Below, one piece after another: positions 5,480 to 47,233 of a DNA stretch of 47,369 nucleotides. Numbering within the stretch: position 1 is the stretch's first letter; each line of letters begins with the position of its first letter. The notes beneath the pieces are model-generated. The model was given only the letters and a program-made list of their open reading frames with translations, ran no database searches and was not told where the DNA came from. The position numbers and the translations under genes are program-made. The stretch is from NCBI GenBank assembly GCA_000992345.1, contig LBUA01000003.1, positions 1-47,369 on the forward strand, read 5' to 3'. The stretch comes from Parcubacteria group bacterium GW2011_GWD2_38_12. Lineage in GTDB: Bacteria > Patescibacteriota > Minisyncoccia > GWC2-36-17.

Positions 5480-5505
5480 CAATAAAAGGCGCGCGCATTT
5501 TATTG
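5480..5505. terminator. Hairpin between convergent thiI and elp3, possibly bidirectional terminator
   Basis: CAATAAAA / TTTTATTG stem (5480-5487 and 5498-5505) with GC-only loop GGCGCGCGCA. A/T arms read as U-tracts in both directions. The right arm overlaps the elp3 stop codon (5500-5502). Confidence 0.5.
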
Positions 5506-29100: not shown

Positions 29101-29807
29101 TTTCAAACAGCGAATTTAGCGGTGATAACGGCAGTAATTTTGCAGGAAATCCATATTATGGCCAAGCTATTTTTATTCAACAAAGCCATGGAACCATTCA
29201 AAACAGTGAAATTAAAAACAATCAAAATCATGGAATTTATGTGGATTCATTAGATTCATCAAATAGTCCGGTTGATATTTTAAACAATATTTTCACCAGC
29301 AACTCAACGCCCATCGCCACAAACGGATTTATTAATTTGAATTTAGAGGATAATACAATTGGTGCCGGAAAAGGACTTGCGGTTTATAATCCATTTGTAA
29401 GAGATGGTGAAATTGCGACAATTTCCAATAAAATTCCTTATCTGCTTTATGACAAAGCAAAAGATAATTATTGGTATAAAGTCGGCGATCCGAAAGTGGA
29501 AGCGGGCGGGGTATTGAAAATTGAGCCTGGGGCTGTTATACAGTTTGGTAGCGACAGTTTTCTGAAAGTTTATGGACGTTTGGAGGCGATAGGTACATTG
29601 GATAAGCCAGTAGTTTTTATGGGGCAATGGGATAGCGCTTCCTACGATAATATGATCAGTGATATAAAAGGCGTGGTAAGTGAATCCAGTTATGTTCAAT
29701 TTTATGACGGTTCGGAGGCGGTACTGGAAAATATCATCAGTCGGCAGAAGATTATTGATCAATATAAAAACATATCTTATCAATCATTTTGGCTTGTGAG
29801 AGAGTAG
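26106..29807 (+). CDS. Mosaic surface protein: zinc phospholipase C-like, lamin-tail and beta-helix domains
   Basis: 1233 residues with an N-terminal signal or anchor (4-26). A zinc-dependent phospholipase C/S1-P1-like domain (about 35-250) has His38, His81, W-A-H126-N-E, G-H164-I-L-H167-L-L-E-D and D176-H177. A low-complexity Glu/Ser/Gln linker (about 410-595) contains a duplicated I-I-H-A-P-Y-Q. Next come a fibronectin-like part (about 598-690), a lamin-tail domain (about 695-805; VINEIAWMG and D-E-W-I-E-L-A) and a right-handed beta-helix region (about 875-1200). The LTD and beta-helix parts suggest binding to surface polymers; the zinc site suggests phosphoester hydrolysis outside the cell. 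Substrate unknown. Confidence 0.75.
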   Translation: MVIILRKIFFIVTIAILTIGGLFLFSQNSKSYDDQTTHPGITDEIVDFYNLYFDDRLTNEEKELIVQGSIDEDTPPRWINHFYDPTNGDGWKSENLGNVSSGTLKLFSKIFFNVNTEIVSSKNWAHNEVLQLKYQDYGGNRTWENAIRRYVNGDKEYAYKTLGHILHLLEDKTVPDHTRNDTHAHEGDGLTKDGGSPYEDYSSGWNRWNLTIAQTLGKENKSPVILNSIDEYFDYLANYSNQYFFSEHTINSEKYGNPKILREDKNYGYGKDKNDQEFVLVKKYEAWNKDKKLYEKIYTLEDNDNLVLSSYFSRLSSEAVLNGAGVIKLFKEEVAKAEKDKNLIKDEPKISWWQKMRSPYYGFILPVYDSVISVSDTIGNIFSQPQQISPMAFVANIGQVAENLTQNTVDEQGQESRIGNQELGMESGIIGSKTGIETEGVSIESEPVESESISANQELSNNDKIEIIHAPYQRPISGEIIHAPYQGNNSGSIGNSVSNESGVFMPTGQYQNIYIHSQPPDENNVDDQAPLDQLSDTVPIIVGNDAPDINTEQSQNDTEVAAPDVLEQNQESGITNQEEENPGPVEEESAPPTPTLPDIDFYLTDYNVRNFSFTLNWEDKNSVIKNWELQYKLAPNFDWQDLNFQNNVASPDEGSADFVALYDDLTYYFRLHGSSADTNSAQTDWQYLQADISSKPVVINEIAWMGTKADSSDEWIELANKTNQEIDLTGLVLKTTDGIIDVNLTGKIAPRGFYLLERTNDDPVVNILADQIYKGALTNRQYSNEPGQNLILIDAENNMVDSVWTLYVGDNDSKRTSERVNIWSSSIFKNNWQNYKGEGGEAQDADGNKILGTPRAANSAIGIYPLNSGVFEAPPQITKDTILLALRGKYIANGPIGINNSQVTIEPGAEFEFTSFSQLQFSDGAKLIAKGTENSKIIINGNEEYTKLYFSGAKGEIENVEINKGKISANNSIIKINKSVIKNAKYGLLMLQNNSEFDISNSEFSGDNGSNFAGNPYYGQAIFIQQSHGTIQNSEIKNNQNHGIYVDSLDSSNSPVDILNNIFTSNSTPIATNGFINLNLEDNTIGAGKGLAVYNPFVRDGEIATISNKIPYLLYDKAKDNYWYKVGDPKVEAGGVLKIEPGAVIQFGSDSFLKVYGRLEAIGTLDKPVVFMGQWDSASYDNMISDIKGVVSESSYVQFYDGSEAVLENIISRQKIIDQYKNISYQSFWLVRE
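27347..27381. repeat. Direct repeat inside the mosaic protein gene
   Basis: AATCAAGAATTGGG occurs twice in tandem and is followed by a shorter third unit. It encodes part of the Glu/Gln/Gly linker and looks like the A/T word repeats of the intergenic spacers. Confidence 0.6.
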
Positions 29808-32838: not shown

Positions 32839-32907
32839 TGCAATATAAGTATACGCATTACTAATATATGTTGACTAAATGCGATATTTTTTGTAATTTA
32901 TATTGCA
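32839..32907. promoter_or_regulatory. Dyad-embedded promoter region of the second glycan operon
   Basis: TGCAATATAA (32839-32848) pairs with TTATATTGCA (32898-32907) and encloses CGCATT / AATGCG (32854-32859, 32878-32883). Inside, TTGACT (32871-32876) with 17-bp spacing to TAATTT (32894-32899) is a candidate promoter. The arrangement suggests an operator or a leader hairpin. Confidence 0.45.
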
Positions 32908-32935
32908 TAAAAAACAAATAAACAAAATAAATGAT

Positions 32936-33898
32936 ATGAAAAAAGCATTAGTTGCCGGAGCGGGCGGTTTTATAGGTAGTCATTTAGTCAGAAGATTAAA
33001 AAAAGAAGGTTATTGGGTAAGGGGTGTAGATTTAAAAAAACCGGAATTTAGTATAACAGAAGCCGATGAATTTATCGTTGGCGATCTGCGGGATTTTGGA
33101 GTTTGCAGAAGTGTTTTAGACCAGCCATTTAATGAAGTTTATCAATTGGCTGCCGATATGGGTGGCGCAGGATATATTTTTACCGGAGAGCATGATGCCG
33201 ATGTGATGCATAATTCTGCTACGATTAATTTAAATATGGTTGACCTTGCAAACAAGCATAAAGTTGGCAAGATTTTTTATTCATCTTCGGCTTGTATGTA
33301 CCCTGCATACAATCAAGAGGATCCAGATAATCCGAATTGTTCGGAAGACTCTGCTTATCCCGCGGCACCCGATAGCGAATATGGCTGGGAAAAACTTTTC
33401 AGCGAGCGTCTTTATTTAAGTTATAGCAGAAATTACGGTTTAAATGTTCGCATTGCCAGATTTCATAATATTTTTGGACCGGAAGGAACTTATGTTGGCG
33501 GAAAAGAAAAGGCGCCGGCTGCGATTTGCAGGAAAGTGGCAGAAGCCAAAGATAAAGGATTTATAGAAATATGGGGGGACGGCAATCAAACCAGGTCATT
33601 TTTATATATTGATGAATGCCTAGAAGGAGTAAGAAGACTTATGGAATCAGATTTTATCGGGCCGGTCAATATCGGGTCAGATGAGATGGTGAGTATAAAT
33701 AAACTGGCGCAAATTACCATGGAGGTAGCTGGTAAAAATTTAGAGATAAATCATATTCCTGGACCATTGGGAGTCAGGGGGAGAAATTCAGACAATACTT
33801 TGATTAAAGAAAAATTAGATTGGTCTCCGTCACTGCCATTAAAAGAAGGAATTAAAAAAACTTATGAGTGGATTTCTTTACGCGTAAATAATACTTAG
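32936..33898 (+). CDS. GDP-mannose 3,5-epimerase-like NAD-dependent epimerase
   Basis: Start at ATG 32936 before KKALVAGAGGFIGSHLV (Rossmann G-x-x-G-x-x-G at 8-14). 320 residues, extended SDR family. Motifs specific to GDP-mannose 3,5-epimerases are present: A-D-M-G-G-A-G, S-S-S-A-C-M-Y-P (catalytic Cys region, about 113-120), Y-G-W-E-K (Tyr-x3-Lys) and R-F-H-N-I-F-G-P-E-G-T with G-G-K-E-K-A-P-A-A-I-C-R-K. That enzyme turns GDP-D-mannose into GDP-L-galactose or gulose. First gene of the long operon; supplies a sugar donor. Another C3/C5 epimerase substrate is possible. Confidence 0.85.
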   Translation: MKKALVAGAGGFIGSHLVRRLKKEGYWVRGVDLKKPEFSITEADEFIVGDLRDFGVCRSVLDQPFNEVYQLAADMGGAGYIFTGEHDADVMHNSATINLNMVDLANKHKVGKIFYSSSACMYPAYNQEDPDNPNCSEDSAYPAAPDSEYGWEKLFSERLYLSYSRNYGLNVRIARFHNIFGPEGTYVGGKEKAPAAICRKVAEAKDKGFIEIWGDGNQTRSFLYIDECLEGVRRLMESDFIGPVNIGSDEMVSINKLAQITMEVAGKNLEINHIPGPLGVRGRNSDNTLIKEKLDWSPSLPLKEGIKKTYEWISLRVNNT

Positions 33899-33900
33899 TT

Positions 33901-35241
33901 ATGAATAAGATTAAAAAAATATCTGTCGTCGGACTTGGAAAACTCGGATCTTGTTTGGCCGCATCTCTAGCCTATAGAGGATTTGATGTAATAGGATTTG
34001 ATATTAATAATAATTTTGTCAATTCAATAAATAATGGCATAACTCCCGTTGACGAGCCACGATTGCAAGAATTGATTAATAAATCAAAAAAAAGATTAAA
34101 AGCCACGATGAATCCGGAAGATATAATAAATAACTCTCAAGCCACATTTATTATAGTGCCCACTCCTTCTACGAAACGAGGTGATTTTTCTGATAAATAT
34201 ATTCAAGATTCTTTAATATCGTTGGCGCCATTTTTAAAAAATAAAAAAGAACATCATATCTTTGTAATAACATCTACTGTTTCTCCCGGTACGACGGAAA
34301 AAAATCTTATACCCTTAATAGAGAAGTTGTCAGGCAAAAAATTAAATAAAGATTTCAGTGTTTGTTATAACCCCGAATTTATTGCGCTTGGCGATGTTGT
34401 AAACGGTCTTTTGAGACCAGATTTAGTATTAATAGGAGAAAGCAGTAAGAATGTCGGCGATATATTAGAAAAAGTTTATAAAAAGTTTTGTGAAAATAAT
34501 CCTGTTATAGCAAAAATGTCTCTTGTGAGCGCGGAAATCTCTAAAATAGCGTTAAACTCATATGTTACTATGAAAATCAGTTTTACCAACACTCTCGGCA
34601 ATATTTGTGAGAAGATACCCGGAGCGAATGTTGATGATGTGACACGAGCGCTTGGCGCGGACAAAAGGATTTCCCCGTATTATTTGAAAGCAGGCCTTGC
34701 TTATGGTGGCCCATGTTTTCCGAGAGATAATAGAGCTTTTGATTTTTTCGCGAAAAATCACGGCATAGACGCTAAATTGGCAAAAGCCACAGATCGCGTA
34801 AATGAATTTCAGATAGAAAACAAATTTAAAAAAATAAAGAATATTTTAAAAATTCATAAATTTAATTCTATTTCCATTTTGGGTCTTGCTTATAAAATAA
34901 AAACTCCGGTGATTGAAGAATCTCCAGCCGTGAAATTGATAAATTATATTTTGACCAATCACAAAAAAACGAAAATTTGCATTTATGATCCCTTGGCGAT
35001 TAAAAGTGCAAAATCTGTTTTCTCCAGAAAAATATACTACGCCTCATCAATGGAAAAATGTCTTAACTTTTCCCCATTATGGGTTATAGCGACGCCGGAA
35101 CCGGAATTTAAAAATATAAGCGACAAGCATATTAAACACAATCCTACTGTTATCGTCGATTCTTGGGGTATAATAGACGAATCTAATTTCAAAAAGGACA
35201 TAAAATATATCAGGATCGGGAAACACAATGAATACAATTGA
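33901..35241 (+). CDS. UDP-glucose/GDP-mannose dehydrogenase family protein
   Basis: 446 residues. NAD-binding SVVGLGKLGSCLAASLA at the N-terminus, then the T-P-S-T region, C-Y-N-P-E-F-I-A-L-G and the catalytic Cys in Y-G-G-P-C-F-P-R-D (about 264-271). A C-terminal UDP-binding domain with I-L-G-L-A-Y-K follows. The usual product is a uronic acid donor such as UDP-glucuronate. The I-A-L-G-D-V and S-Y-V-T-M-K-I-S-F variants match the less characterised branch often labelled nucleotide sugar dehydrogenase, so the sugar is not fixed. Two bp from the epimerase; overlaps the next gene by 14 bp. Confidence 0.88.
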   Translation: MNKIKKISVVGLGKLGSCLAASLAYRGFDVIGFDINNNFVNSINNGITPVDEPRLQELINKSKKRLKATMNPEDIINNSQATFIIVPTPSTKRGDFSDKYIQDSLISLAPFLKNKKEHHIFVITSTVSPGTTEKNLIPLIEKLSGKKLNKDFSVCYNPEFIALGDVVNGLLRPDLVLIGESSKNVGDILEKVYKKFCENNPVIAKMSLVSAEISKIALNSYVTMKISFTNTLGNICEKIPGANVDDVTRALGADKRISPYYLKAGLAYGGPCFPRDNRAFDFFAKNHGIDAKLAKATDRVNEFQIENKFKKIKNILKIHKFNSISILGLAYKIKTPVIEESPAVKLINYILTNHKKTKICIYDPLAIKSAKSVFSRKIYYASSMEKCLNFSPLWVIATPEPEFKNISDKHIKHNPTVIVDSWGIIDESNFKKDIKYIRIGKHNEYN

Positions 35242-36040
35242 AAATGTTAAAAATTATTGGAATGGGAGGCCATGCAATATCAGACATTCCACAAAAGAAA
35301 TAGGTACTAAAGAATATTTTAATGAAGTGGAAGCGAGAAAGTATTTTGTTGAGCCGCATATACTTGATTTTGCACAATTTGACAGATGGAAAGATAAAAA
35401 TGTTTTAGAAATTGGCTGTGGTATCGGCACGGCTACAATCGGTTTTGCCCGCGCTGGCGCGGATGTAACGGCGGTTGATTTGTCTGAAAAGTCATTAAAA
35501 ATGGCTAAAAAAAGAGCGAATATATACGGGTTTAAAAATATAAAATTTTATACTGCTAATGCGGAAGAACTTTCAAAAACAGTGCCGGTGGAGAAATACG
35601 ATTTAATTTATTCTTTTGGCGTAATTCATCACACTCCTCATCCGGAAAAAGTATTTGAGGAAATTAAAAAATATTGCAAACCGGAAACGGAAATAAGAAT
35701 AATGCTTTATTCCAAATGGTGCTGGAAAGTATTCTGGATAATTTTTACCTACGGCAAAGGCAGATTTTGGCAAATAAATAAATTGGTTCCGAGATATTCC
35801 GAGGCGCAAACCGGCAGTCCGATTACATATATTTATTCATTTTGGGATATTCGTAAGTTGATGAAAGATTTTAATATTATGAATATATACAAAGATCATA
35901 TTTTCCCGTATGTTATAGGAAAATACGTAAAATACGAATATCAATATGTTTGGTATTTCAGGTGGATGCCAAAGTTTTTATTTAGATGGTTGGAAAGACA
36001 TTTTGGTTGGCACACCATGATTATTGCAAAATTAAAATAA
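35228..36040 (+). CDS. Class I SAM-dependent methyltransferase
   Basis: 270 residues. SAM motif I V-L-E-I-G-C-G-I-G-T-A (about 58-68), acidic V-D-L-S (about 82-85) and F-G-V-I-H-H-T-P-H-P (about 130-139) are in standard order. The N-terminal Y-W-N-x-R-P-C-N-I-R and long aromatic C-terminus occur in UbiE/COQ5-like enzymes of glycan loci. Starts inside the end of the dehydrogenase gene (14-bp overlap), implying coupling. Likely methylates a sugar or lipid intermediate; not provable from sequence. Confidence 0.85.
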   Translation: MNTIENVKNYWNGRPCNIRHSTKEIGTKEYFNEVEARKYFVEPHILDFAQFDRWKDKNVLEIGCGIGTATIGFARAGADVTAVDLSEKSLKMAKKRANIYGFKNIKFYTANAEELSKTVPVEKYDLIYSFGVIHHTPHPEKVFEEIKKYCKPETEIRIMLYSKWCWKVFWIIFTYGKGRFWQINKLVPRYSEAQTGSPITYIYSFWDIRKLMKDFNIMNIYKDHIFPYVIGKYVKYEYQYVWYFRWMPKFLFRWLERHFGWHTMIIAKLK

Positions 36041-36043
36041 CCT

Positions 36044-36406
36044 ATGAATCCGTATATTCTTGTTTTAATATCTATAATATTATCATCTCTGGGCCAAATT
36101 CTTCTCAAGATAGGGGCTAATTCATTCACGGAAATACGTCTTTCCGCCGACAATTTTACCGTTATTATTTATAAAATGATAAAAAATCCTTCAATGATAC
36201 TTGGGGTTATTGTTTTTGCTACAAGTTTTTTTATTTGGATACTTTCTTTGTCAAAATTAAAACTCAATATTGCGTATCCGCTTACAAGCGCAACATTTGT
36301 TTTGGTTAGTTTTATGTCTGTTTTTATTTTGCATGAGCCATTTTCTTTTTATCAAATTATTGGTATTTGTTTTATTATTATCGGAATTGTTATTTTATTT
36401 CAATAA
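36044..36406 (+). CDS. EamA/SMR-like four-helix transporter, possible lipid-linked sugar flippase
   Basis: 120 residues with four transmembrane helices. N-terminal I-I-L-S-S-L-G-Q-I-L-L-K-I-G and the pattern L-K-L-N-I-A-Y-P-L-T-S-A-T-F-V-L-V with F-I-L-H-E-P-F fit single-domain EamA/SMR-type proteins such as ArnE/ArnF, which flip undecaprenyl-phosphate-aminoarabinose as dimers. It lies two genes before a polyprenyl-phosphate glycosyltransferase, which supports a flippase role. Only one such subunit gene is seen, so it would be a homodimer. A drug exporter is the alternative. Confidence 0.75.
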   Translation: MNPYILVLISIILSSLGQILLKIGANSFTEIRLSADNFTVIIYKMIKNPSMILGVIVFATSFFIWILSLSKLKLNIAYPLTSATFVLVSFMSVFILHEPFSFYQIIGICFIIIGIVILFQ

Positions 36407-36412
36407 CTTTAA

Positions 36413-36913
36413 ATGAACGAACGAGATTTTCCCAAAATAAATCTTATTTCTCCCGTTTTATGGTTTCGCTATTTTGTGCGTTTTTTTGCAAGTTTTATTC
36501 CACCATCTTTTTTAAAGAATTTTTTTTATAGAATAACAGGAATAAAAATTGGTCGAAATGTATTTATTGGAGAGAGTGTTTATTTTATAGATGGTTTCAA
36601 AGGTGGTCTTATTGATTTAAAAGATGGAGCGGTATTGTCTCCCAAGGTTGTCGTAGTGGCAATGGCGGTTCCGGCAGAATCATTTATTGGTAAAAAATAT
36701 TATGTTACAAAAACTGCTAAAGTTACCATAGGAGAGGGGTCTTGGATTGGGGTTGGCGCGGTAGTTTTACCATCTGTTGTAATTGGTGACGGGTCTATTA
36801 TTGGAGCAAATGCCGTTGTTAATGGTCCGGTCAGATCACTTGAAATGTGGGCAGGAGTGCCGGCGAAATATATTAAAAAGGTAGAAGATTATGGATTAAG
36901 AGATAAAAACTAA
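36413..36913 (+). CDS. Left-handed beta-helix acyltransferase (WbbJ-like)
   Basis: 166 residues. Hexapeptide repeats I-G-R-N-V-F-I-G, V-T-I-G-E-G-S-W-I-G-V-G-A-V-V-L-P-S-V-V-I-G-D-G and S-I-I-G-A-N-A-V-V form the left-handed helix. M-W-A-G-V-P-A-K-Y-I-K-K is the characteristic C-terminal end of sugar O-acetyltransferases. The N-terminal 45 residues are hydrophobic and basic, perhaps a membrane contact. Probably O-acetylates a sugar of the glycan. The usual catalytic His in the middle repeats is not obvious, so activity is less certain. Confidence 0.82.
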   Translation: MNERDFPKINLISPVLWFRYFVRFFASFIPPSFLKNFFYRITGIKIGRNVFIGESVYFIDGFKGGLIDLKDGAVLSPKVVVVAMAVPAESFIGKKYYVTKTAKVTIGEGSWIGVGAVVLPSVVIGDGSIIGANAVVNGPVRSLEMWAGVPAKYIKKVEDYGLRDKN

Positions 36914-36916
36914 AAT

Positions 36917-37870
36917 ATGAAAAATAAATTAATTTCAATTGTTTTACCTCTTCATAATGAGGAAGGAAATATTAATGAGCTGTATCAGCGCCTTATTAGA
37001 ACGCTTAATACAGAAAAAAAATATGACTTTGAAATAATTTTTGTAAATGATGGCAGTATTGATTCCTCTCTTAAATTGGTGAAAGATTTGTCGTTGCGTG
37101 ATAATCGAGTTAAATATATTTCATTATCTAGGAATTTTGGGCATCAAGCGGCGTTAACTGCTGGCTTAACATATGCAAAAGGCGATGCAATTATTATGAT
37201 AGATGCTGATCTTCAACATCCTCCGGAATTAATTACTGAATTAATCACCTGTTGGGAGGATGGTTATCAAGTAGTTTACACAGTTAGAGATGAAACAAAA
37301 GATATTTCATTTTTTAAGAAGATCACGGCAAATATTTTTTATAGATTAATAAATTTAGTATCGCAAGTAAAAATAGATCCGAATAGTTCTGATTTTAGGC
37401 TTATCGATTCCAAAATCTGCGATATAATTAGGCAAAATCCCGAAAGAGAACGATTTTATCGAGGCTTGATCCCATGGATTGGTTTTCGTCAAAAATCCAT
37501 AAGATTCTGTGCTGATTCTCGATTCTCCGGTAAAACCTCATATACATTATCTAAGATGTTAAGATTTGCAATTAGTGGCATCCTTTCCTTTTCTTTCGTC
37601 CCTCTCTTGGTAATTATTGGATTGTCTATTTTTTTGGCGATTGCTTCAATAATTTATATCCTATTTGTTTTTTATCAGAAATTTATTTCTGGTCAGGCTA
37701 TTCCCGGTCAGGCATCTGTACTTATTGCGATATTAATTATAGGTAGTGTTCAGCTTCTTGCTATTTCAATTACTGCTATATATTCATATAAAACGTATCA
37801 TGAAGCTAAGAGGCGGCCGATTTATATAGTCGACGAAACCAAGGGATTTAACGATGAGCCAAAATCATAA
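36917..37870 (+). CDS. Polyprenyl-phosphate glycosyltransferase (GT2, GtrB/ArnC-like)
   Basis: 317 residues. GT2 domain with S-I-V-L-P-L-H-N-E-E-G-N, F-V-N-D-G-S-I-D-S-S, S-L-S-R-N-F-G-H-Q-A-A-L-T-A-G and the metal-binding D-A-D-L-Q-H-P-P-E, followed by two C-terminal transmembrane helices (about 215-245, 260-290). This is the layout of enzymes that move a sugar from a nucleotide to undecaprenyl phosphate. Its stop overlaps the deacetylase start by one base (TAATG), tying both steps together. Confidence 0.92.
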   Translation: MKNKLISIVLPLHNEEGNINELYQRLIRTLNTEKKYDFEIIFVNDGSIDSSLKLVKDLSLRDNRVKYISLSRNFGHQAALTAGLTYAKGDAIIMIDADLQHPPELITELITCWEDGYQVVYTVRDETKDISFFKKITANIFYRLINLVSQVKIDPNSSDFRLIDSKICDIIRQNPERERFYRGLIPWIGFRQKSIRFCADSRFSGKTSYTLSKMLRFAISGILSFSFVPLLVIIGLSIFLAIASIIYILFVFYQKFISGQAIPGQASVLIAILIIGSVQLLAISITAIYSYKTYHEAKRRPIYIVDETKGFNDEPKS

Positions 37871-38694
37871 TGAATCATATAATTATTAATGCCGATGATC
37901 TCGGGCTAACTAATAGTGTCAATAAAGGAATATTTGAAGCAATTGATGCAGGCGTGGTCAGTGATGTATCCCTTTTGGCTGTAGGCGATGGATATGACGA
38001 CGCAGTAAAAGGTCTTCTAGAGAGAAATATCAAAACAATAGGATTGCATTTTTGTATAGTTGATAAAGAAAAGCCATTAAGTTTACCAAGCGAAGCATCA
38101 TTGATCTGTGAGAACGACGGGAGTTTTTTTACTAATCGAAATAGGATATTTGCGAAAATTCTTTTCAAGAAAGATGAAACATTGAAATTTATTAAAAGAG
38201 AACTTGAGTTACAAATAAAAAAAATAAAAAATTCAGGATTTAAAATAACCCATTTTGATTCTCACCAGCACGTTCATCTTTTTCCCGGGATTGCCGACAT
38301 TTTTGTTGAAACATGTTATCGTCATAATATCCCATTTATGAGACTTCCGAAAACACTCTCCCTAAGGAGTCCGTTGACGGGGTTTGCGGTGGGAATTTTT
38401 GCATGGCGACTTGAAAGGTTGCTTAAAAAATATAATATTAAGTTTGTGCCTTTTTGCGGTTTTGAATATAGCGGTTGTCTTACGGAAGAAAAATTAAGAA
38501 AAATTTTAATCCAAGCAAAACAAAAATTTGCGTCAGAGTTTATGGTGCATCCCGGAAAAAATGATAATTATACTCAAGAGAAATACGCGCACTGGAATTA
38601 TGATTGGAGCTCGGAATTGTCCTTATTATTAAATAACAAACATTTAATTAATGATTTAAGTCTTAAGTTAATAAATTTTGAATACTTGCTCTAG
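37870..38694 (+). CDS. YdjC/ChbG-family carbohydrate deacetylase
   Basis: 274 residues. Metal and active-site segments: I-N-A-D-D-L-G (6-12; catalytic Asp), G-L-H-F-C (about 58-62), T-H-F-D-S-H-Q-H-V-H (about 131-140; His ligands) and M-V-H-P-G (about 225-229). ChbG removes N-acetyl groups from chito-oligosaccharides; the related HpnK deacetylates a GlcNAc-lipid in hopanoid-producing bacteria. Coupled to the polyprenyl-phosphate glycosyltransferase, so the substrate is probably a lipid-linked N-acetyl sugar. Confidence 0.88.
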   Translation: MNHIIINADDLGLTNSVNKGIFEAIDAGVVSDVSLLAVGDGYDDAVKGLLERNIKTIGLHFCIVDKEKPLSLPSEASLICENDGSFFTNRNRIFAKILFKKDETLKFIKRELELQIKKIKNSGFKITHFDSHQHVHLFPGIADIFVETCYRHNIPFMRLPKTLSLRSPLTGFAVGIFAWRLERLLKKYNIKFVPFCGFEYSGCLTEEKLRKILIQAKQKFASEFMVHPGKNDNYTQEKYAHWNYDWSSELSLLLNNKHLINDLSLKLINFEYLL

Positions 38695-38704
38695 AAAATA
38701 AATC

Positions 38705-39556
38705 ATGAATTGCCCTAATTGCAACAGTCAAAAAAATAAAATTCGTTTTTCTTTAGATACATACAAAATTGTCAAATGCTTAAATTGCGGAGTGTTTTAT
38801 AATCGCGATTTCCCAGAAAAAGAAGATTTAAAAGAAACATTTTCAGAAAAATATTATTCAGATATTCAAAAAGAAGCGTTTTCTTATATAAAAGAACAAA
38901 GGAATGAAGATGTCAGCTGGGATATTTACAGGCTTGGACTTGATTATATAGAGAAAAATAGCGGGAAGGGATATTTGCTTGATGTCGGCTGCGCTTTTGG
39001 TTCTTTTTTGAAATTTGCCTCTAATAGAGGTTGGCGCGTTGGAGGCGTAGAAATCTCCGAATATTCCTCTTCTTATGCAAGAGATGTCCGCGGTTTTAAT
39101 GTGCTTACGGGAAATTTATTAAATTTACCAGCCCAAAATGAGCAATTTGATGTGGTTACTTTTTGGGATTCGATTGAGCATATGAGGGAAGTAAGACAAA
39201 ATATTGAAAAAGCTTCTGCCATTTTAAAGCCGAAGGGGTATATTGTTATCACAACAGATAATTTTAATGGATTTCTTTCATTTGTGGCCTCGTTGTTTTA
39301 TTATGCTTCTTTTACATTTCTCAAATACCCAATAAGAAAATTTTTTATTCCATATAATAGTTGTTATTTGACGCATAGCAAACTTAAAACTATATTGAGC
39401 CAAGTGGGGCTGAAAGAGGTGTACTATAGGGGGATAGATTATCCATTAAGTAAAATTAAACTTAATTTTTTTGAGCGAGTAATTCTTGGTATTTTATATA
39501 AAATTGGCGACTTATTGAATATGAACAGCCAGTTTATTATAATTGCGCAGAAATAA
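38705..39556 (+). CDS. SAM methyltransferase with N-terminal zinc ribbon
   Basis: 283 residues. N-terminal C3-x2-C6 and C25-x2-C28 (MNCPNCNS, VKCLNCG) form a zinc ribbon. The class I methyltransferase core has L-L-D-V-G-C-A-F-G-S-F (about 92-102) and V-T-F-W-D-S-I-E-H-M (about 151-160). This combination (methyltransf_23 type) is frequent in polysaccharide loci, where such enzymes act on sugars or glycosyl carriers. A hydrophobic stretch near 200 may touch the membrane. Ten bp after the deacetylase. Confidence 0.85.
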   Translation: MNCPNCNSQKNKIRFSLDTYKIVKCLNCGVFYNRDFPEKEDLKETFSEKYYSDIQKEAFSYIKEQRNEDVSWDIYRLGLDYIEKNSGKGYLLDVGCAFGSFLKFASNRGWRVGGVEISEYSSSYARDVRGFNVLTGNLLNLPAQNEQFDVVTFWDSIEHMREVRQNIEKASAILKPKGYIVITTDNFNGFLSFVASLFYYASFTFLKYPIRKFFIPYNSCYLTHSKLKTILSQVGLKEVYYRGIDYPLSKIKLNFFERVILGILYKIGDLLNMNSQFIIIAQK

Positions 39557-39558
39557 AT

Positions 39559-41808
39559 ATGTTTTCTTTAAGAACAAAATTAAATATTGCTCTGGCGTTT
39601 TTGACAAAAAACAGGCCTTTTTATATCCAGTATTATATTACCCCTTCTTGTAATCTAAATTGTCGTATGTGTAATATTGTTGAATCCAACTTTGATCTTC
39701 GGGCAGTTGATTTGAAAACTGTTGAAAAAATTGCCGCTAATCTCAGTAAAATTGGTGCTGGAGTTGTTCTCCTCACTGGCGGCGAACCGTTTCTTAGAAA
39801 AGATTTGCCGGAAATGATAGATATTTTTACTAAATACGGTTTGAACCCCAGACTTCAGACCGCAGGCCTGCTAACTAAGCGAGAACAGTTGGAAGCATGT
39901 GCCAGAGCAGGGGCAAAAGATATAAACATTAGTCTAGATTCTCTTATTCCTGAAAAACAAGAATATATTAATGGCAGTATTCCTAATTCTTGGCATCGCG
40001 CGATAGAAACGATTGTAAACGCAAATGACGTTTTCCAAAATCCCGATAGAATATGCGCTTTTGGGACTGTGCTTTCAAAATATAATTATATGGAGATTCC
40101 GGCTATCATTGAGCTTGCGACATTTCTTGGTTGGTATGAATCTTTGGTCCCCGTACATATTACATCCCTTGAATCTCCGATGAATTTTCGCGGCACAGAT
40201 AAAGATTTTAAATTTTATTTTCCTGACGATAAAGCCGCACTTGTTGAATTGAAAGAAAAAATAATTAAAATGAAACAGGGAGGATATAATATTTTTGATA
40301 GTGATGCTTATCTTAAATCTGTTTTTTATTTTCTTGAAAATAATCATCCGACATGGAGAAAAAATAATGTTTGTGATAGTCCCAATTTATATTTTGCCAT
40401 TTTACCGAATGGTGATTTTGCCCCTTGTTGCGATCATAGATTTCAAGGAAAATTATCTGTAGCTGATAAAGATTTTCCAGCACTCTATAATTCTCCAGAG
40501 TTTAGATCGTCGGTATATAAAACCACTTCTTCGTGTGGAGGATGTAATTTTGGAAGCTATCCGGAAGTTACTTTAAGCGTTCGCGATCCAAGAGCATTTT
40601 TAAGTCGCGTAAAGATGGTTTTATTTTCTAAAAATAAAAAGATTCCAAAAAGAACATTGCCCGAAGTTTATGAATTTATAGAACATCTCCGCAAAAAGTA
40701 TAGGATTGCTCCTTTTGAGCCGCCATCAAAATCAAAAGAAGTCGCATGCAGTCAACGTTATGGATATTCTGAAAAATCTTCTCGTAAAATATCTCCTAAA
40801 ATTTTGCAAGAAAATAATCAAGATAAGCCCGAATTCAAAGTATTAGTTACCGGTGCAAATGGTTTTGTTGGCGGGGCAATTGTTGAGGCGTTGCTTAAAA
40901 TGCCCGAAATATCCGTAATCGCGACTGTCAAAAAGTCTAATGCAGAATTAATGTCTTTAGCAAATAAAAATAACAGTCTTTTAATTATAGAAGGCGTTGA
41001 TTTGACTGATAAAAAAATGCTTTCAAGAATTCCATCAGGTATTACTCATGTGGTGCATGCCGCCGCGCTTGCGCGCTTTAAAGGGGCGCAAAAAGAAGAA
41101 CTTTATCGGAATAATGTTGACTCTACGGAAAATCTATTAAATTATTTCAAGGAAACTTCACGAAATACTTTCAAAAGATTTATTTTTATTAGCACTATTG
41201 GCGTTCATGACAGACCATTAATTTATGATAAAAAAATATTAATTAAGGAAGATTCCCCATTTAAGCCAAAAAGTGACTATGGAAAATCAAAATTAAAAGG
41301 GGAGAGAATGGTGCGTCTTAGCGGATTGCCGCATATAACTATCAGACTTGGCTGGGTATATGGTCCAAAAATGAGGGAAAATTCTCACATAAGAGCGTTT
41401 TTTGCAATATGCAAGAAAAAAAGTATTATATCGCGATTTGATTTTCCTGGCAGAATTAGTCTGGCTTATATTGACGATGTCGCAGAAGCTATTAAAGATT
41501 TGATTTTTAGGGAAAATCTTTCGCATAACACATATCTTATGGCAAGCGATGAGACCATTTCAATAGGGGATATTTTTAGAATATTTCGTCAAAAACTTGG
41601 ATATAGTGGAAAAATGATCTCTTTTCCCAACACCGCGCGACGCATACTTAATGTAGTGACTCCAATTTTTCCTATGGAAATAAGATCGCTTTTTGAAAAT
41701 TATCTTGTATGTAATGTAGATAATCTTAAATCTGAAGAAATTCAACTTAAGACCCTGTTCTCAAGGGGAATTGATCAATGTTTTGAAAGTTGGTTTAAAA
41801 AAATATGA
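39559..41808 (+). CDS. Radical SAM/SPASM-like enzyme fused to an NAD-dependent epimerase
   Basis: 749 residues. Domain 1 (about 20-330) is a radical SAM protein with C31-x3-C35-x2-C38, V-L-L-T-G-G-E-P-F and S-L-D-S. Late cysteines near 272, 289-290 and 325-328 (CDSPN, PCCDH, SSCGGC) are of the kind that hold an auxiliary cluster. After a linker rich in Lys/Ser (about 340-425), domain 2 is an extended SDR: V-L-V-T-G-A-N-G-F-V-G-G (about 428-439), F-I-S-T-I-G and the Y-G-K-S-K catalytic pair (about 575). No stop or frameshift separates them. Nearest relatives of part 1 look like HpnH/MoaA-type enzymes. Overlaps the next gene by 4 bp. Confidence 0.85.
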   Translation: MFSLRTKLNIALAFLTKNRPFYIQYYITPSCNLNCRMCNIVESNFDLRAVDLKTVEKIAANLSKIGAGVVLLTGGEPFLRKDLPEMIDIFTKYGLNPRLQTAGLLTKREQLEACARAGAKDINISLDSLIPEKQEYINGSIPNSWHRAIETIVNANDVFQNPDRICAFGTVLSKYNYMEIPAIIELATFLGWYESLVPVHITSLESPMNFRGTDKDFKFYFPDDKAALVELKEKIIKMKQGGYNIFDSDAYLKSVFYFLENNHPTWRKNNVCDSPNLYFAILPNGDFAPCCDHRFQGKLSVADKDFPALYNSPEFRSSVYKTTSSCGGCNFGSYPEVTLSVRDPRAFLSRVKMVLFSKNKKIPKRTLPEVYEFIEHLRKKYRIAPFEPPSKSKEVACSQRYGYSEKSSRKISPKILQENNQDKPEFKVLVTGANGFVGGAIVEALLKMPEISVIATVKKSNAELMSLANKNNSLLIIEGVDLTDKKMLSRIPSGITHVVHAAALARFKGAQKEELYRNNVDSTENLLNYFKETSRNTFKRFIFISTIGVHDRPLIYDKKILIKEDSPFKPKSDYGKSKLKGERMVRLSGLPHITIRLGWVYGPKMRENSHIRAFFAICKKKSIISRFDFPGRISLAYIDDVAEAIKDLIFRENLSHNTYLMASDETISIGDIFRIFRQKLGYSGKMISFPNTARRILNVVTPIFPMEIRSLFENYLVCNVDNLKSEEIQLKTLFSRGIDQCFESWFKKI

Positions 41809-42554
41809 GAAATAAATCTATTCTTATAACGGGAGCCGCTTCGGGACTTGGTGAGCAACTCGCTCTAGAAGCGCGCGCAAGAGGCTACGATCTTTATCTT
41901 GTTGATAATTCACCAAAAATTACTGATGTTGCCGCTAAAATTAATGCTAAATATTTAATTGCTGACCTTTCTGACCGAAGATCGTTAGACGAGATCGCTG
42001 AATGGGCGCGTAATGCGGAGATTATAATAAATAATGCCGGTATAGCAAAAAAGGAGGTGTTTCATAAAATGTCCACTCTAGACGCGGAAAGGGTAGTAGC
42101 GGTTAATATTTTGGCGCCGATGATTTTGAGCCGAATTTATCTTGAGCGTTTTTATAAGAGCGGTTCGGGCGCAATTATCAATATCTCCAGTTCGGCAAGC
42201 TATTTTCCGACTCCGCAAATGGCTCCATATGGTGCGTCAAAAGCGTGGTTGAACGCATTTACTGAATCTCTATTTATTGAAGTTAAAAGTTTTCCAAAAA
42301 TAAAAATTTTAGCTATTTGCCCCAGCGGGATGAATACGGATTTTCAGCAATCTAGCGGAGTTAAAAGGGATTATTCAGAGCTTCTTCTTAATCCCGTAAT
42401 TGTAGCTAAAAGAATATTTAATGATATAGAAAAAGGAAGGAGTGGAATAAGAAATTATGGAACAATGACACATTTATTCAAAATTCTAAGATCATTTTTG
42501 CCAGCAAAAATTTATTTGCGTTTGATTGGATATTTAATAAATCGCTATCGTTAA
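41805..42554 (+). CDS. Short-chain dehydrogenase/reductase
   Basis: 249 residues, classical SDR: T-G-A-A-S-G-L-G (cofactor loop, 9-16), I-I-N-N-A-G-I-A (about 74-81), I-S-S-S-A-S with the catalytic Ser and Y-G-A-S-K (about 148-152). A C-terminal extension of about 40 basic and hydrophobic residues may bind membrane, as in SDRs acting on lipids. ATGA overlap with the radical SAM-epimerase gene suggests the same pathway: keto-sugar or keto-lipid reduction is plausible. Confidence 0.88.
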   Translation: MRNKSILITGAASGLGEQLALEARARGYDLYLVDNSPKITDVAAKINAKYLIADLSDRRSLDEIAEWARNAEIIINNAGIAKKEVFHKMSTLDAERVVAVNILAPMILSRIYLERFYKSGSGAIINISSSASYFPTPQMAPYGASKAWLNAFTESLFIEVKSFPKIKILAICPSGMNTDFQQSSGVKRDYSELLLNPVIVAKRIFNDIEKGRSGIRNYGTMTHLFKILRSFLPAKIYLRLIGYLINRYR

Positions 42555-42562
42555 TTTAATAA

Positions 42563-44821
42563 ATGAAAATAATTGATTTTATGAAAATAAATATTGTTAA
42601 GTTATTCAAACCAATAATTTTGGTAGCAATATGTTACACATTGCTCACTATTGTTTTTTGGGGAGCCTTTGTCCTTGATAGGGGCTTACATGCTGAAACA
42701 AAATGGATTGAGCTTAGCCAGGAACGACCGAGTTTAGAAGGATTTATTTATCCCGATAAAGACAGGCTATTTATGTCTTTGCCTTTTCATATAGCGTATA
42801 TTTTCTCTGACGGCTCTTATTTAAGTCTTCACATTTTATTCGGAATTTTTGTTTTCCTTACAGGATTTTTGAGTTATTTGATAATGCGCCATTTTTTTCC
42901 TGGTAATATTTTTTTAAATTTTTTGATAGGGGCGGTCACTCTTGTGTTTGGAGCTGACATGGCTGTTGTGTTATTGCCCATGATTGTAGTTCGCCAAGCC
43001 ATAGTTTTTATGCTTGCGGCTTTTCTTATATTTTTAATTGCCTGGAAGAAGCAAAAACCGGCGCTACTATTGGTAGTAGCGACGGCTCAACTTATATCGC
43101 TTTGGACTTATGAGGTTGGTCTTTTAATGATGCTTTGCGCGCCCTTACTTATTTGGGAAAAAGGAATTAACTGGCGAAAATGGTGGATGTGGGCGTTCGC
43201 ATGGAATATAGTGCCCGCATTAAAGGTGGCTTATATGGGGTATCGTTATTTGATTCAGCAAGAGGTTTCATATCAATCAGCGCAATTATTTTCAGCCGAC
43301 TGGTCTATTATTAATATTCCCATAAGAATGTTTCGATTTGTTTATGATGGCCTATTATTTTGGAATTGGTCGGAAGATTGGCTCGGGCCTTTCAGCGAGG
43401 GATGCACTTCCACGATGGTAAATAAAATTTCTATACCGTTAATAATTGGCGTAGTCGGATTTGCGGTTGCTATTTTTTTGATAAATAAATTTCAATCTTC
43501 GGAAGGAAAGATCCCTGTTAACAAGATTTTGTTATTTGCCACTATTTTTTCAATTTTAGCGTATTTGCCGTTTTTGCCGCTTGGGCAAATTCATCCATTT
43601 TTTAAAATGAATTGGCGGACGCATTTTTATCCAGCTTTTCCTATGGCGGTTATTTTAATAATAGCACTTTACCAAATAGGACTAATGTTGCGCACAAGGT
43701 GGATCTTATTTATCGGAAGTATTCTTATAATCGTATCCGGGCTTTTTAGCGGTATGGCCAATCAATTAGAGCAGGATAATTTTTGGGCAAGGCATCAAAA
43801 TGTTATGTCGGCGATTGTTCGTCAAGCGCCGAATATCAAAGATGATACACTTGTTGTTTTGACCAATATTCCAGATAAGCTTTTGTATTCTGTTTGTGAA
43901 AATTATCCGCCGACAAATCCGTTCGGGTCTCCGATGTGGTTTAATTCCGCTCTTCAAGTATATTATCCGAACACCCGGCTTATAGGTCTTTATACTTATG
44001 AAGGCGCCATAATGCCCGAAGCGGACTTTAAATTTAATTTTAATAAAAATGGAGTGGAGTTAGAACGTACTAGTATTAGATTGGAAGGGAAAGATTTTGG
44101 ATATGACCAGATGATTGCTTTTGAATTTGATTCGCAAAAAGGAGCAACGCTTTTAGCGAGTGACTTCCCTTCGGCTGATGTTTTGGGATCAATTAATCAT
44201 TCGGATTATAATCCCATTAAGAGAATTGATTTTAATCCTCCGCCAATAGAAACAATTAGAAAATTAGATATTGATAAAGAAATATTCATTGGCGTTTCGG
44301 AAGAGTGTTATGACGAAACTAATATGGAGAAGCGTATTAATATGCTAGATTGGGGTGGAGATAATGTTCTGCGGGAGAGCTTGGGAGTTAATTTTTACGG
44401 CATTTTGCCACTTAATCGGGAGGGTTCACTGACCATGAAAGAAAATCATTTATATTTTTTGACAAAGGACGATAAGGATCATTTGACTACTCCATTTTTA
44501 CCGCTTCAAAATTTAGAGAGCGGAGAAAAATATATTACGCTTGTTAGCGCTTGGTATGGAGATTGGTCAATTAAAGAAATTATGTCTACTAAGGGCAAAT
44601 CCGCGGCTTTAATGATGTTGCAAGATAAAAATTTTAATACGCTTGTAGAAGCCCAGCCATCAGGACAATCTTTAACGCGATTGCCTGAAGGCAAATATAC
44701 TTTATGCGCGCCGGTAAGCGCTAAAACGGAAGATGTGCGAGTTGTTTTTAAGGGTAAGTCCGGAAAGGAAGTCATAATGCCGGATAGAATTATGATTGAG
44801 CACGTTCGACTTAAGAAATAA
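42563..44821 (+). CDS. Multi-span membrane protein with a large extracytoplasmic domain (GT-C-like), function unknown
   Basis: 752 residues. About ten transmembrane segments (20-420), with a conserved-looking D-R-G-L-H-A-E-T-K-W-I-E-L loop after the first helix (acidic residue in the first outside loop, as in GT-C glycosyltransferases). A soluble C-terminal part (about 430-750) with beta-strand character follows. No database family recognised by eye. As a GT-C protein it would use a polyprenyl-phosphate sugar outside the membrane, consistent with the upstream GtrB-like enzyme and flippase. Confidence 0.65.
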   Translation: MKIIDFMKINIVKLFKPIILVAICYTLLTIVFWGAFVLDRGLHAETKWIELSQERPSLEGFIYPDKDRLFMSLPFHIAYIFSDGSYLSLHILFGIFVFLTGFLSYLIMRHFFPGNIFLNFLIGAVTLVFGADMAVVLLPMIVVRQAIVFMLAAFLIFLIAWKKQKPALLLVVATAQLISLWTYEVGLLMMLCAPLLIWEKGINWRKWWMWAFAWNIVPALKVAYMGYRYLIQQEVSYQSAQLFSADWSIINIPIRMFRFVYDGLLFWNWSEDWLGPFSEGCTSTMVNKISIPLIIGVVGFAVAIFLINKFQSSEGKIPVNKILLFATIFSILAYLPFLPLGQIHPFFKMNWRTHFYPAFPMAVILIIALYQIGLMLRTRWILFIGSILIIVSGLFSGMANQLEQDNFWARHQNVMSAIVRQAPNIKDDTLVVLTNIPDKLLYSVCENYPPTNPFGSPMWFNSALQVYYPNTRLIGLYTYEGAIMPEADFKFNFNKNGVELERTSIRLEGKDFGYDQMIAFEFDSQKGATLLASDFPSADVLGSINHSDYNPIKRIDFNPPPIETIRKLDIDKEIFIGVSEECYDETNMEKRINMLDWGGDNVLRESLGVNFYGILPLNREGSLTMKENHLYFLTKDDKDHLTTPFLPLQNLESGEKYITLVSAWYGDWSIKEIMSTKGKSAALMMLQDKNFNTLVEAQPSGQSLTRLPEGKYTLCAPVSAKTEDVRVVFKGKSGKEVIMPDRIMIEHVRLKK

Positions 44822-44836
44822 TTTAATATTTATAAA

Positions 44837-45619
44837 ATGACAAAAAAAATAAAATACTACAAAGAATTAATTTGGGAATTAACTAAAAATGAATTGAAGC
44901 TCCGCTATAGCGGATCTGTTTTGGGTTTTATTTGGGTTTTTTTAAAACCATTTATGACATTTGCTATTTTGTTTATGGTATTTTCTGTTTTTTTTGGTCA
45001 ACATGACCCTTATTATAAATTCAATCTTTTAATTGGATTAGTGTTATTCTATTATTTTTCTGAAGGAACAATACAGCTCACCGATACTCTTCTCAAGAGA
45101 GCGGATATAATATTAAAGCTTAATTTTCCAAGATTTGTTGTTATTGTTTCATCGCTTCTTAGCACTTTTATTAATTTTTTAGCGTCACTCTCATTCTTTT
45201 TTGTTTTGGTTTTTCTATTTTCTAAAACAGACCACATATTTAGTATGTATGGTTTATTAATGTTTGTAATAGCAGTTATTTTCTTATCTTTGCTGATATT
45301 GGGCTTTGGTCTTTTTTCGAGCATAATTCAAGTTAAACTTCGGGATTTTCAACAAATCTGGTCTCTTTTTATTCAGCTTCTAATGTATTCCACTCCGATT
45401 ATTTATCCATTGACGATCTTGCCTGATAAATTACAGAAAATCATCCTATTAAATCCGCTTACAATTATTATTGATTTTTCAAGAAGTCAACTGTTAAATA
45501 TGCCACTTGCAGTTTCGCTAAATTCAGTGATTATTCTCGCAGTTTTTATTATTTTATTAAATGTTGCGGGATATTATTATTTTAATAATAGAATCAAAAT
45601 AATAGCGGAGAATATATAA
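44837..45619 (+). CDS. ABC-2 type polysaccharide exporter permease (Wzm-like)
   Basis: 260 residues with six transmembrane segments. N-terminal amphipathic L-I-W-E-L-T-K-N-E-L-K-L-R-Y-S-G-S-V-L-G and F-I-W-V-F-L-K-P are typical for Wzm/TagG permeases; the loop M-Y-S-T-P-I-I-Y-P and L-N-P-L-T-I-I-I-D match the same family. It exports a completed glycan attached to its lipid carrier, together with the ATPase six bp downstream. Confidence 0.92.
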   Translation: MTKKIKYYKELIWELTKNELKLRYSGSVLGFIWVFLKPFMTFAILFMVFSVFFGQHDPYYKFNLLIGLVLFYYFSEGTIQLTDTLLKRADIILKLNFPRFVVIVSSLLSTFINFLASLSFFFVLVFLFSKTDHIFSMYGLLMFVIAVIFLSLLILGFGLFSSIIQVKLRDFQQIWSLFIQLLMYSTPIIYPLTILPDKLQKIILLNPLTIIIDFSRSQLLNMPLAVSLNSVIILAVFIILLNVAGYYYFNNRIKIIAENI

Positions 45620-45625
45620 ATTATT

Positions 45626-46351
45626 ATGATTAAAATAGAAAATTTATCAAAAACATTTTTAGTTCCGCACGAAAAGAGATTTAATATTAAAGATTATTTT
45701 ATTCATTTTTTTTCAAAAATGAATTATGAAAAATTCAATGCTTTGAACGATATTTCTTTCAACATGGAAAAAGGAGAGTGGCTAGGTATTATAGGTAGCA
45801 ATGGAGCTGGCAAGTCCACACTTCTTAAAATACTAGCCGGTATTTATTCGCCTGATTCCGGGAAAATAGTTATTAAAGGAAATGTTGTTCCGTTTTTGGA
45901 ATTGGGGGTTGGCTTTCATTCCGAACTTTCAGCGAGGGATAATATATACTTAAACGGTTTACTGCTTGGTATTCCCAGAAAAAAAATTCAGGAAAAATTT
46001 GATGAGATAATAGATTTTGCGGAAATAAGGCCCTTCGTAGACCAGAAATTAAAAAATTTTTCGTCAGGTATGCAGGCGCGGCTAGGTTTTGCTATTGCGA
46101 TGCATGCGCCGGCAGATGTATTTTTAATTGATGAAATTTTGGCGGTGGGGGATTATGCTTTTCAACAAAAAAGTTTAAATACTTTCAAGAATAAATTAAA
46201 GGATAAAACTATTGTTTTTGTTAGTCATGATATGAATAAAATAAAAGAAAATTGTAATAGGGTAATGTGGATCGCAGATGGCCGAATTAAGGAAATTGGC
46301 AATCCAGAAAAGGTAATTGCTAATTATATAATATCGGAACAAAGGGTATAA
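45626..46351 (+). CDS. ABC transporter ATPase of polysaccharide export (Wzt-like, short form)
   Basis: 241 residues. Walker A G-S-N-G-A-G-K-S-T (about 57-65), signature F-S-S-G-M-Q-A-R-L (about 148-156), Walker B V-F-L-I-D-E (about 168-173), H-loop V-S-H-D. The I-x-G-N-V-V-P-F-L-E-L-G-V-G-F sequence is typical of Wzt/TagH. It lacks the C-terminal carbohydrate-binding domain of E. coli O9a Wzt, so export is probably not gated by a modified glycan end. Confidence 0.93.
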   Translation: MIKIENLSKTFLVPHEKRFNIKDYFIHFFSKMNYEKFNALNDISFNMEKGEWLGIIGSNGAGKSTLLKILAGIYSPDSGKIVIKGNVVPFLELGVGFHSELSARDNIYLNGLLLGIPRKKIQEKFDEIIDFAEIRPFVDQKLKNFSSGMQARLGFAIAMHAPADVFLIDEILAVGDYAFQQKSLNTFKNKLKDKTIVFVSHDMNKIKENCNRVMWIADGRIKEIGNPEKVIANYIISEQRV

Positions 46352-46354
46352 TTT

Positions 46355-47233
46355 ATGATAGACCTTATTTTTAATTTGATAAATAAATATAAACAAAAAT
46401 CCATAATTGAAAAAATGGATTTAGCTAATGAATTGGACAAGGTTGTCCGCTATTTTATTATTCTAACTCCCGGACATTCGGGGAGTTTGTGGCTTAGCAA
46501 GATTCTAAGCGCTCATCCGGATGTTTTATGTTTTCATGAGGGTCCGGTGCAGAAAATTTTCCCTAAAAGATATTACAATTTGACCGATGAAGATATAATG
46601 ATTTGGCTATATTCCCTAAAAAGTACTTCCGCAAACCATTACGGGAAAATTTATAAGGCAATTGGGGGTATTGGTAAGATAACTCCCTCTGCTGCATTAT
46701 CTGAAAAAATAAGACCATATTTTTTGGTTTTTAATTTGACGCGCAATCCAATTAATTTTATTAATTCACAACTTCAATCTACCGACGAAAGAGTTATTCC
46801 AAAGAGAAAAAGAGAAGTTTTAAAAATATCGGAGAACGCGGTTAGTCATTCCCCTCAAATTAAGGAAATATATTCAAAAAGCCTAGATAATAAGTTGTTT
46901 GTTTGGGCGTGTTGGGAATGGTCTTATTATGCCGAGAGTTCGAGTGATGCATTATATAGAATGGAAGATTTGACAAGTGATTTAGAAATTCTCATAAGAT
47001 CTTTAGAGGAAATAACCGGCATCAATATTAGTGAGAATAAATATTTTATGGATAGCATTAAAAATCTCATGGAGAATCGAGTCAATTCTCATTTAAAAGA
47101 AAAACGGCGCGATCTGAATGATATTTATTTAAACCAATGGAACAATGACCAAAGATTTTTATTCAATAAAATTTGTGGCTTAAAAGCCAAAGAACTTTAT
47201 CCTGAGTTATCCAATATTTTGAATCATGAATGA
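46355..47233 (+). CDS. Sulfotransferase family protein (putative)
   Basis: 292 residues. PAPS-binding elements: T-P-G-H-S-G-S-L-W-L-S-K-I-L (about 38-51, the 5'-phosphosulfate loop) followed by A-H-P-D-V-L-C-F-H-E, and F-N-L-T-R-N-P-I-N-F-I-N-S (about 128-140, 3'-phosphate binding Arg and Ser). It would sulfate a sugar of the exported glycan, using PAPS made elsewhere. Overlaps the next glycosyltransferase by 8 bp. The C-terminal half is divergent. Confidence 0.72.
   Translation: MIDLIFNLINKYKQKSIIEKMDLANELDKVVRYFIILTPGHSGSLWLSKILSAHPDVLCFHEGPVQKIFPKRYYNLTDEDIMIWLYSLKSTSANHYGKIYKAIGGIGKITPSAALSEKIRPYFLVFNLTRNPINFINSQLQSTDERVIPKRKREVLKISENAVSHSPQIKEIYSKSLDNKLFVWACWEWSYYAESSSDALYRMEDLTSDLEILIRSLEEITGINISENKYFMDSIKNLMENRVNSHLKEKRRDLNDIYLNQWNNDQRFLFNKICGLKAKELYPELSNILNHE

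Follow-up and report, generated by a model that had tools for sequence, protein, structure and literature searches.

A predicted Twitch-type radical SAM protein fused to one half of the SDR-SDR protein that usually partners it, in a recurrent glycan gene cassette of a Parcubacteria group bacterium

The stretch of DNA analysed here (47,369 nucleotides of Parcubacteria group bacterium GW2011_GWD2_38_12; hereafter the window) encodes a radical SAM protein fused to an extended SDR domain. The radical SAM half represents an uncharacterised subfamily of the Twitch type that belongs to a recurrent glycan cassette and that, in this one lineage, is joined to half of the SDR-SDR protein that usually accompanies it. 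We found no description of this cassette in the open-access literature.

The fused gene (39559..41808, plus strand) is one uninterrupted open reading frame that runs from an ATG at 39559 to a stop codon at 41808 and encodes 749 amino acids. Along the protein, a radical SAM core is followed by a four-Cys Twitch domain, a disordered linker and an extended SDR. Pfam matches were obtained for Radical_SAM (PF04055; residues 25-187, E 2e-21, 77 bits against a cut-off of 29.5) and Epimerase (PF01370; residues 428-646, E 2e-26, 93.6 bits against 20.9), while a match to SPASM (PF13186; residues 272-330) scored 21.1 bits, slightly under its cut-off of 21.5. Orthologues of both halves are known: 21 complete radical SAM proteins that stand alone align with the first half over its full length, to approximately residue 385, and the second half aligns with the greater part of the first domain in SDR-SDR proteins. 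The AlphaFold model of the fusion likewise has two folded domains and a disordered linker. This full-length model was built on a partly misaligned set in which some SDR rows were misplaced, and with a pTM of 0.56 its domain orientation is not reliable. The linker (residues 395-424; 40741..40830, plus strand) has a pLDDT below 50 and contains no in-frame ATG, its sole possible in-frame start being a TTG at codon 416.

The fusion put forward in the original prediction is real in the deposited sequence: when the genome it comes from (674 kb in 23 contigs, 96% complete) was searched, the same intact frame of 749 codons was recovered. Should it nonetheless stem from an assembly error or from a recent change of frame, its domains would work independently in one pathway. 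None of the 22 stand-alone orthologues compared (21 plus the 50% identical relative L130) is fused to an SDR, as that reading would have it, but the frame is open, codon third-position composition is even across the junction, both flanking domains are complete, the linker is of the typical flexible kind, and both domains are members of one cassette elsewhere. We therefore consider an artefact very unlikely.

The N-terminal half carries the radical SAM cluster motif CNLNCRMC (C31, C35 and C38; 39649..39672, plus strand). The CxxxCxxC pattern and a GGEP motif, both set in a partial TIM barrel, place it in the radical SAM superfamily (PF04055). All three of these cysteines, the GGEP motif and C272, C290, C291, C326 and C329 are invariant across 22 aligned sequences. 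The latter cysteines form a putative auxiliary cluster site of the Twitch type (C272-X12-G-X4-C290 and C326-X2-C329, plus C291; 40372..40545, plus strand), assigned from their invariance and from a model of the radical SAM half (pLDDT 78, pTM 0.83). In this model, C272 precedes and C290 follows a β hairpin (residues 278-288), and C326 and C329 come after a helix (residues 313-324). Such a placement is that of the Twitch class, of the BtrN, MoaA and SkfB kind, and an auxiliary cluster is accordingly predicted by the model. In BtrN, the Twitch arrangement fully ligates one cluster around a β hairpin and helix α2′ (PMC6231123), and this auxiliary cluster is thought to take an electron during two-electron alcohol oxidation (PMC9012708); together these studies set a precedent for electron acceptance by a Twitch cluster that is fully ligated (PMC6231123; PMC9012708). 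We also considered a SPASM enzyme and rejected it: the seven-Cys motif for two auxiliary clusters is absent, the only conserved cysteines being C272, C290 (with C291), C326 and C329. The label “cluster-rich” in the original prediction was thus an overstatement, as the sequence predicts two Fe-S clusters and not three.

Two affinities that the original prediction had named for comparison with this half found no backing. There is no B12-binding domain (PF02310) detectable by Pfam anywhere in the 749 residues, which speaks against a TsrM-type B12 radical SAM enzyme and likewise against a GenK-type one. Viperin, which makes ddhCTP and is not known to have an auxiliary-cluster domain, was matched by phmmer at an E-value of only 0.05, and in the fold comparison it ranked 14th and lower with 16% identity. 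The HpnH model was not among the best 25 of the 66 NCBIfam matches of the fusion, nor was the AprD4-family model NF033070 among those 25, and no listed model reached its cut-off. A BtrN-type radical dehydrogenase, which would oxidise a secondary alcohol by two electrons, fits the sequence in its ligand pattern only.

By fold, the radical SAM half is matched best in the PDB by the peptide enzyme SuiB, with BlsE, SkfB, DesII and MoaA following at similar E-values, so the fold cannot fix the substrate. With SuiB and SkfB among the top matches, the enzyme might be thought to mature a peptide in a RiPP-like manner and to lie among sugar genes by chance. Yet no peptide-recognition domain was matched in Pfam, the cassette yielded no gene for a precursor peptide (although no dedicated search was made for one), and a family 2 glycosyltransferase (GT2) and a methyltransferase are conserved beside the radical SAM gene, which leaves a peptide substrate highly improbable.

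A scan of GTDB species genomes yielded 21 orthologues of the radical SAM half, with 42-44% identity over residues 1-342, from Verrucomicrobiota, Pseudomonadota, Myxococcota, Bacteroidota, Elusimicrobiota and Omnitrophota. All 21 are separate proteins of approximately 374-410 amino acids from a common start, and none is fused to an SDR. The scan searched with artificial rows that contained a degenerate motif (PNG[DE][VF]xPCC), and hits were confirmed with the actual window protein as query; it sees only relatives that bear the motif, so 21 is a lower bound. Profile searches, with the centre genomes included, recovered the family in 4 of 237 genomes of the Omnitrophota phylum, 3 of 250 of the Verrucomicrobiota phylum and 1 of 229 gammaproteobacteria, and also revealed the nearest relative, L130 (49-50% identity). 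No orthologue was found in 380 and 384 sampled genomes of the same phylum as the window (about 760 relatives), in which other radical SAM proteins share only about 25-35% identity over parts of their length. Plasmid and phage collections held no close relative, and no useful result came from single-protein scans or from the few plain alignments made in viral contigs. Since the family is rare and patchy, its distribution suggests horizontal transfer. The trees are consistent with this, albeit weakly: the window sits beside L130 for the radical SAM and classical SDR domains with modest support, the extended SDR tree does not resolve its position, and the window and L130 are both long branches.

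Other radical SAM genes were observed along the way. Genomes L035 and L031, of the same class as the window, each carry a radical SAM gene with an extended SDR gene directly after it (L035: 9844-10929 and 8855-9844, both on the minus strand and overlapping; L031: 372-1529 and 1549-2547). We considered these pairs as the unfused ancestor and rejected them, as their radical SAM proteins are only 23-28% identical to the window protein and constitute a different pair. Because they are non-orthologous, the coupling of radical SAM and SDR genes arose more than once in the class. Distant relatives of the radical SAM half (29-32% identity) in L128, L129 and L131 lie amid two to four B12-binding radical SAM genes. 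Elsewhere in the window (5500-7323, minus strand), a 607-amino-acid protein resembles the tRNA-modifying radical SAM/acetyltransferase Elp3, an assignment made from sequence only.

The C-terminal half of the fusion (40837..41805, plus strand) is an extended SDR by its Pfam Epimerase match, its best matches and its motifs (TGANGFVG at residue 431, STIG at 545 and YGKSK at 574), with both the TGxxGFxG and YxxxK signatures of PF01370 present. The fusion stop codon overlaps by 4 bp the start of a gene for a classical SDR of 249 amino acids (41805..42554, plus strand; adh_short E 4e-37). In 11 of the 21 orthologue loci, and in L130, an SDR-SDR protein of about 567 amino acids, with an extended and a classical domain in tandem, is encoded no more than about 9 kb away from the radical SAM gene; in locus L063, the classical SDR end of such a protein lies at the contig edge. 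Alignment pairs the extended SDR of the window with the first domain of the SDR-SDR protein and the classical SDR with the second, the latter two sharing the specific motif CPxGMxTxFQ...GVK. We searched 12 genomes, which range from 2.3 to 7.5 Mb and all offer many SDR candidates; the best matches of the two window SDRs were the two halves of one SDR-SDR protein in all 12. These genomes had been picked for a didomain protein near the radical SAM gene, a choice of which the best-match test is independent.

The same three domains are therefore linked through two different joinings, namely a radical SAM-extended SDR fusion plus a classical SDR in the window, versus a radical SAM protein plus an extended-classical SDR fusion elsewhere. 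That two different fusions tie them together is good evidence that they share a pathway. The pairing of the halves is meaningful, as they are separate genes of one cassette in 11 of the 21 orthologue loci, besides L130 and the partial case in L063. Relatives that encode the halves as unrelated genes far apart, which the original prediction had named as counter-evidence, are not what we observed: in the 12 genomes searched, the best match of the fused SDR is the cassette protein. The suggestion that the overlapping SDR gene is part of the same functional unit is borne out by the best-match test in the same way. No SDR-SDR gene was seen in range in the remaining 9 of the 21 loci, so the radical SAM protein does not always need one. 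The designation “sugar epimerase”, in turn, is not established: it reflects a Pfam superfamily name, and no curated epimerase model reached its cut-off with the fusion protein (GalE, 61.9 against 262; HpnA, 56.5 against 368). PRK07201-type proteins (NF005539) resemble the didomain protein of the cassette in having two tandem SDR domains; they differ in that the cassette protein scores 95 bits against a cut-off of 549 and in that the window joins the first SDR to a radical SAM protein.

In the window, the fusion lies within a tight operon from 32903 to 47233, in which neighbouring genes overlap or stand no more than 15 bp apart, all on the plus strand. Upstream of the fusion are genes for a nucleotide-sugar SDR (32903-33898) and a UDP-glucose/GDP-mannose dehydrogenase (33901-35241), both assigned by Pfam; a methyltransferase, MT1 (35228..36040); an ArnF/ArnE-like small flippase (36044..36406; 64 bits to the ArnF model, under its cut-off of 99); a hexapeptide acyltransferase (36413..36913; Pfam Hexapep); a GtrB/ArnC-like polyprenyl-phosphate glycosyltransferase of the GT2 kind (36917..37870); a YdjC/HpnK-like carbohydrate deacetylase (37870..38694; YdjC E 6e-52, HpnK model 112 bits, under its cut-off of 233), which was not seen in other cassettes; and a second methyltransferase, MT2, with N-terminal zinc-ribbon-like Cys pairs (38705..39556; Pfam Methyltransf_23). 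The GT2 protein belongs with GtrB and ArnC, having a GT2 domain, C-terminal membrane helices (hydrophobic region 214-291) and close matches to solved members (284 bits to GtrB sll0501 and 114 bits to ArnC). Downstream of the SDR genes are a 752-amino-acid membrane protein with about nine helices predicted from hydropathy (42563..44821), which had no Pfam or PDB match and is a candidate GT-C glycosyltransferase, and a Wzm/Wzt-type ABC glycan exporter (44837..46351; ABC2_membrane and ABC_tran). The glycosyltransferase, flippase and exporter agree with the surface-glycan setting envisaged earlier. This gene set resembles the GtrB/GtrA and Arn systems in its GT2 near solved GtrB and ArnC, its small flippase, its deacetylase and its candidate GT-C, and we know of no radical SAM enzyme or SDR-SDR protein in those systems.

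Several other genes of the window were also observed. Behind the exporter, a 292-amino-acid protein (46355-47233, plus strand) with no Pfam or NCBIfam match has a sulfotransferase-like P-loop region (TPGHSGSLWLSKIL). Away from the operon, a YfhO-like membrane glycosyltransferase (PF09586; 15239-17437, minus strand) could be the transferase for which a polyprenyl-phosphate sugar serves as substrate. At 21856-25248 and 26106-29807 lie genes for two predicted proteins of great length (1130 and 1233 amino acids), one of them with a lamin-tail domain.

Much of this neighbourhood recurs with the radical SAM orthologues. A GT2 related to that of the window lies near the radical SAM gene in 20 of the 21 orthologue loci (210-251 bits in 19, and a partial 60-bit match in L076). 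Directly behind the radical SAM gene is a methyltransferase in every locus on a long enough contig (weak, at 67 bits, in L063), of which MT1 (65 bits) is a possible counterpart, the similarity being weak. Methyltransferases related to MT2 occur in 9 of the 21 loci. The flippase type varies, being ArnF/ArnE-like in the window and GtrA in other cassettes (seven of the 21 loci; PF04138 in L071). Several cassettes comprise only the GT2, GtrA, the radical SAM protein and the methyltransferase, with no SDR. Taken together, the cassette probably modifies a sugar that is carried on a lipid and meant for the cell surface.

We tentatively propose, at slightly under even confidence for the account as a whole, that the radical SAM domain oxidises an unactivated position of a sugar, that the SDRs re-reduce it, and that a surface-glycan sugar is thereby tailored. 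The GT2 would load a sugar onto polyprenyl phosphate, and the 5′-deoxyadenosyl radical would abstract a hydrogen from an unactivated carbon of the lipid-linked sugar or of its nucleotide precursor. The four-Cys auxiliary cluster would then take the electron, as in BtrN, to leave a keto-sugar, whose carbonyl the SDR domains would reduce or reposition using NAD(P)H. The simplest net outcome would be epimerisation; deoxygenation would result instead if the radical step were a dehydration as in AprD4/AprD3. The fusion would hand an unstable keto intermediate straight to its reductase. Methyl- and acyltransferases would finish the sugar, the small flippase would turn it over, and it would join the glycan exported by Wzm/Wzt. 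We found no specific evidence of the dehydration or the C-C bond formation that the original prediction had raised.

This proposal draws on the fusion itself, the orthologous family with its invariant Cys ligands, the two ways of joining the three domains, the recurrent GT2 and methyltransferase, and the closeness of the GT2 to GtrB and ArnC. It also draws on the BtrN-like Cys arrangement, on the sugar-acting enzymes BlsE and DesII as structural neighbours, and on the nucleotide-sugar SDRs matched by the full-length model. BtrN (2-deoxy-scyllo-inosamine dehydrogenase) resembles the window protein in combining a radical SAM core with a C-terminal Twitch domain whose four Cys occupy equivalent topological positions, and it acts on a sugar-like alcohol; it appeared neither in the sequence matches reported nor in the 50 fold matches listed. 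To our knowledge, BtrN is not fused to an SDR. In AprD4/AprD3, a radical SAM diol dehydratase makes a carbonyl on a sugar that a partner NADPH reductase reduces, a precedent for such a division of labour, although there the two are separate proteins (PMC5461906). Against the proposal may be set the peptide enzyme SuiB as best fold match, the nine loci that have no SDR-SDR gene, the varying flippase type and the weak relationship of MT1 to the methyltransferase beside the radical SAM gene elsewhere; the SDR alone could also act on a lipid carbonyl.

The radical SAM domain could instead act on a free nucleotide sugar before loading, much as BlsE and DesII do, with the SDR an ordinary nucleotide-sugar reductase or epimerase and the glycosyltransferase merely using the product. 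Among PDB entries, BlsE (cytosylglucuronate decarboxylase) matches the radical SAM half best by sequence (E 3e-9) and shares its CxxxCxMC motif, and it stands with DesII among the best fold matches (TM 0.70 by target length for BlsE); it differs in its structural identity of only about 18% and in its proposed second-cluster motif, C317xC319xxC322 (PMC3715490). In the full-length model, moreover, the fold matches of the extended SDR are nucleotide-sugar epimerases and dehydratases, and the operon opens with a nucleotide-sugar SDR and a UDP-sugar dehydrogenase. The constant partner, however, is a polyprenyl-phosphate glycosyltransferase, and the SDR-less cassettes fit a later tailoring step, which makes this course somewhat unlikely. 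It is improbable that the module modifies a lipid, be it a polyprenyl tail, a hopanoid-like molecule or an acyl chain, rather than a sugar. SDR-SDR proteins do score to models for HpnA, thioester reductases and PRK07201, the radical SAM profile weakly matches GDGT-MAS, and the YdjC gene is HpnK-like, but all the supporting models lie far under cut-off, we recognised no genes of hopanoid or fatty-acid metabolism in the operon, and the neighbours are glycan genes.

Returning to the oxidation and re-reduction of a sugar, we regard it as rather unlikely, though worth stating, that the full combination holds: a radical SAM enzyme and its reductase in one covalent unit, acting on a polyprenyl-phosphate-linked sugar, in a rare cassette that appears to have moved between phyla and into a 0.67-Mb genome. 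We know of no described counterpart for such surface-sugar remodelling. What the data describe is a Twitch-type subfamily of radical SAM proteins whose glycan-synthesis neighbourhood stays constant across at least six phyla, together with a fusion that predicts which oxidoreductases work with it. If the proposed reaction is correct, radical chemistry would lead to rare surface sugars in settings other than the biosynthesis of antibiotics, and a very reduced genome would have acquired a whole sugar-tailoring cassette.
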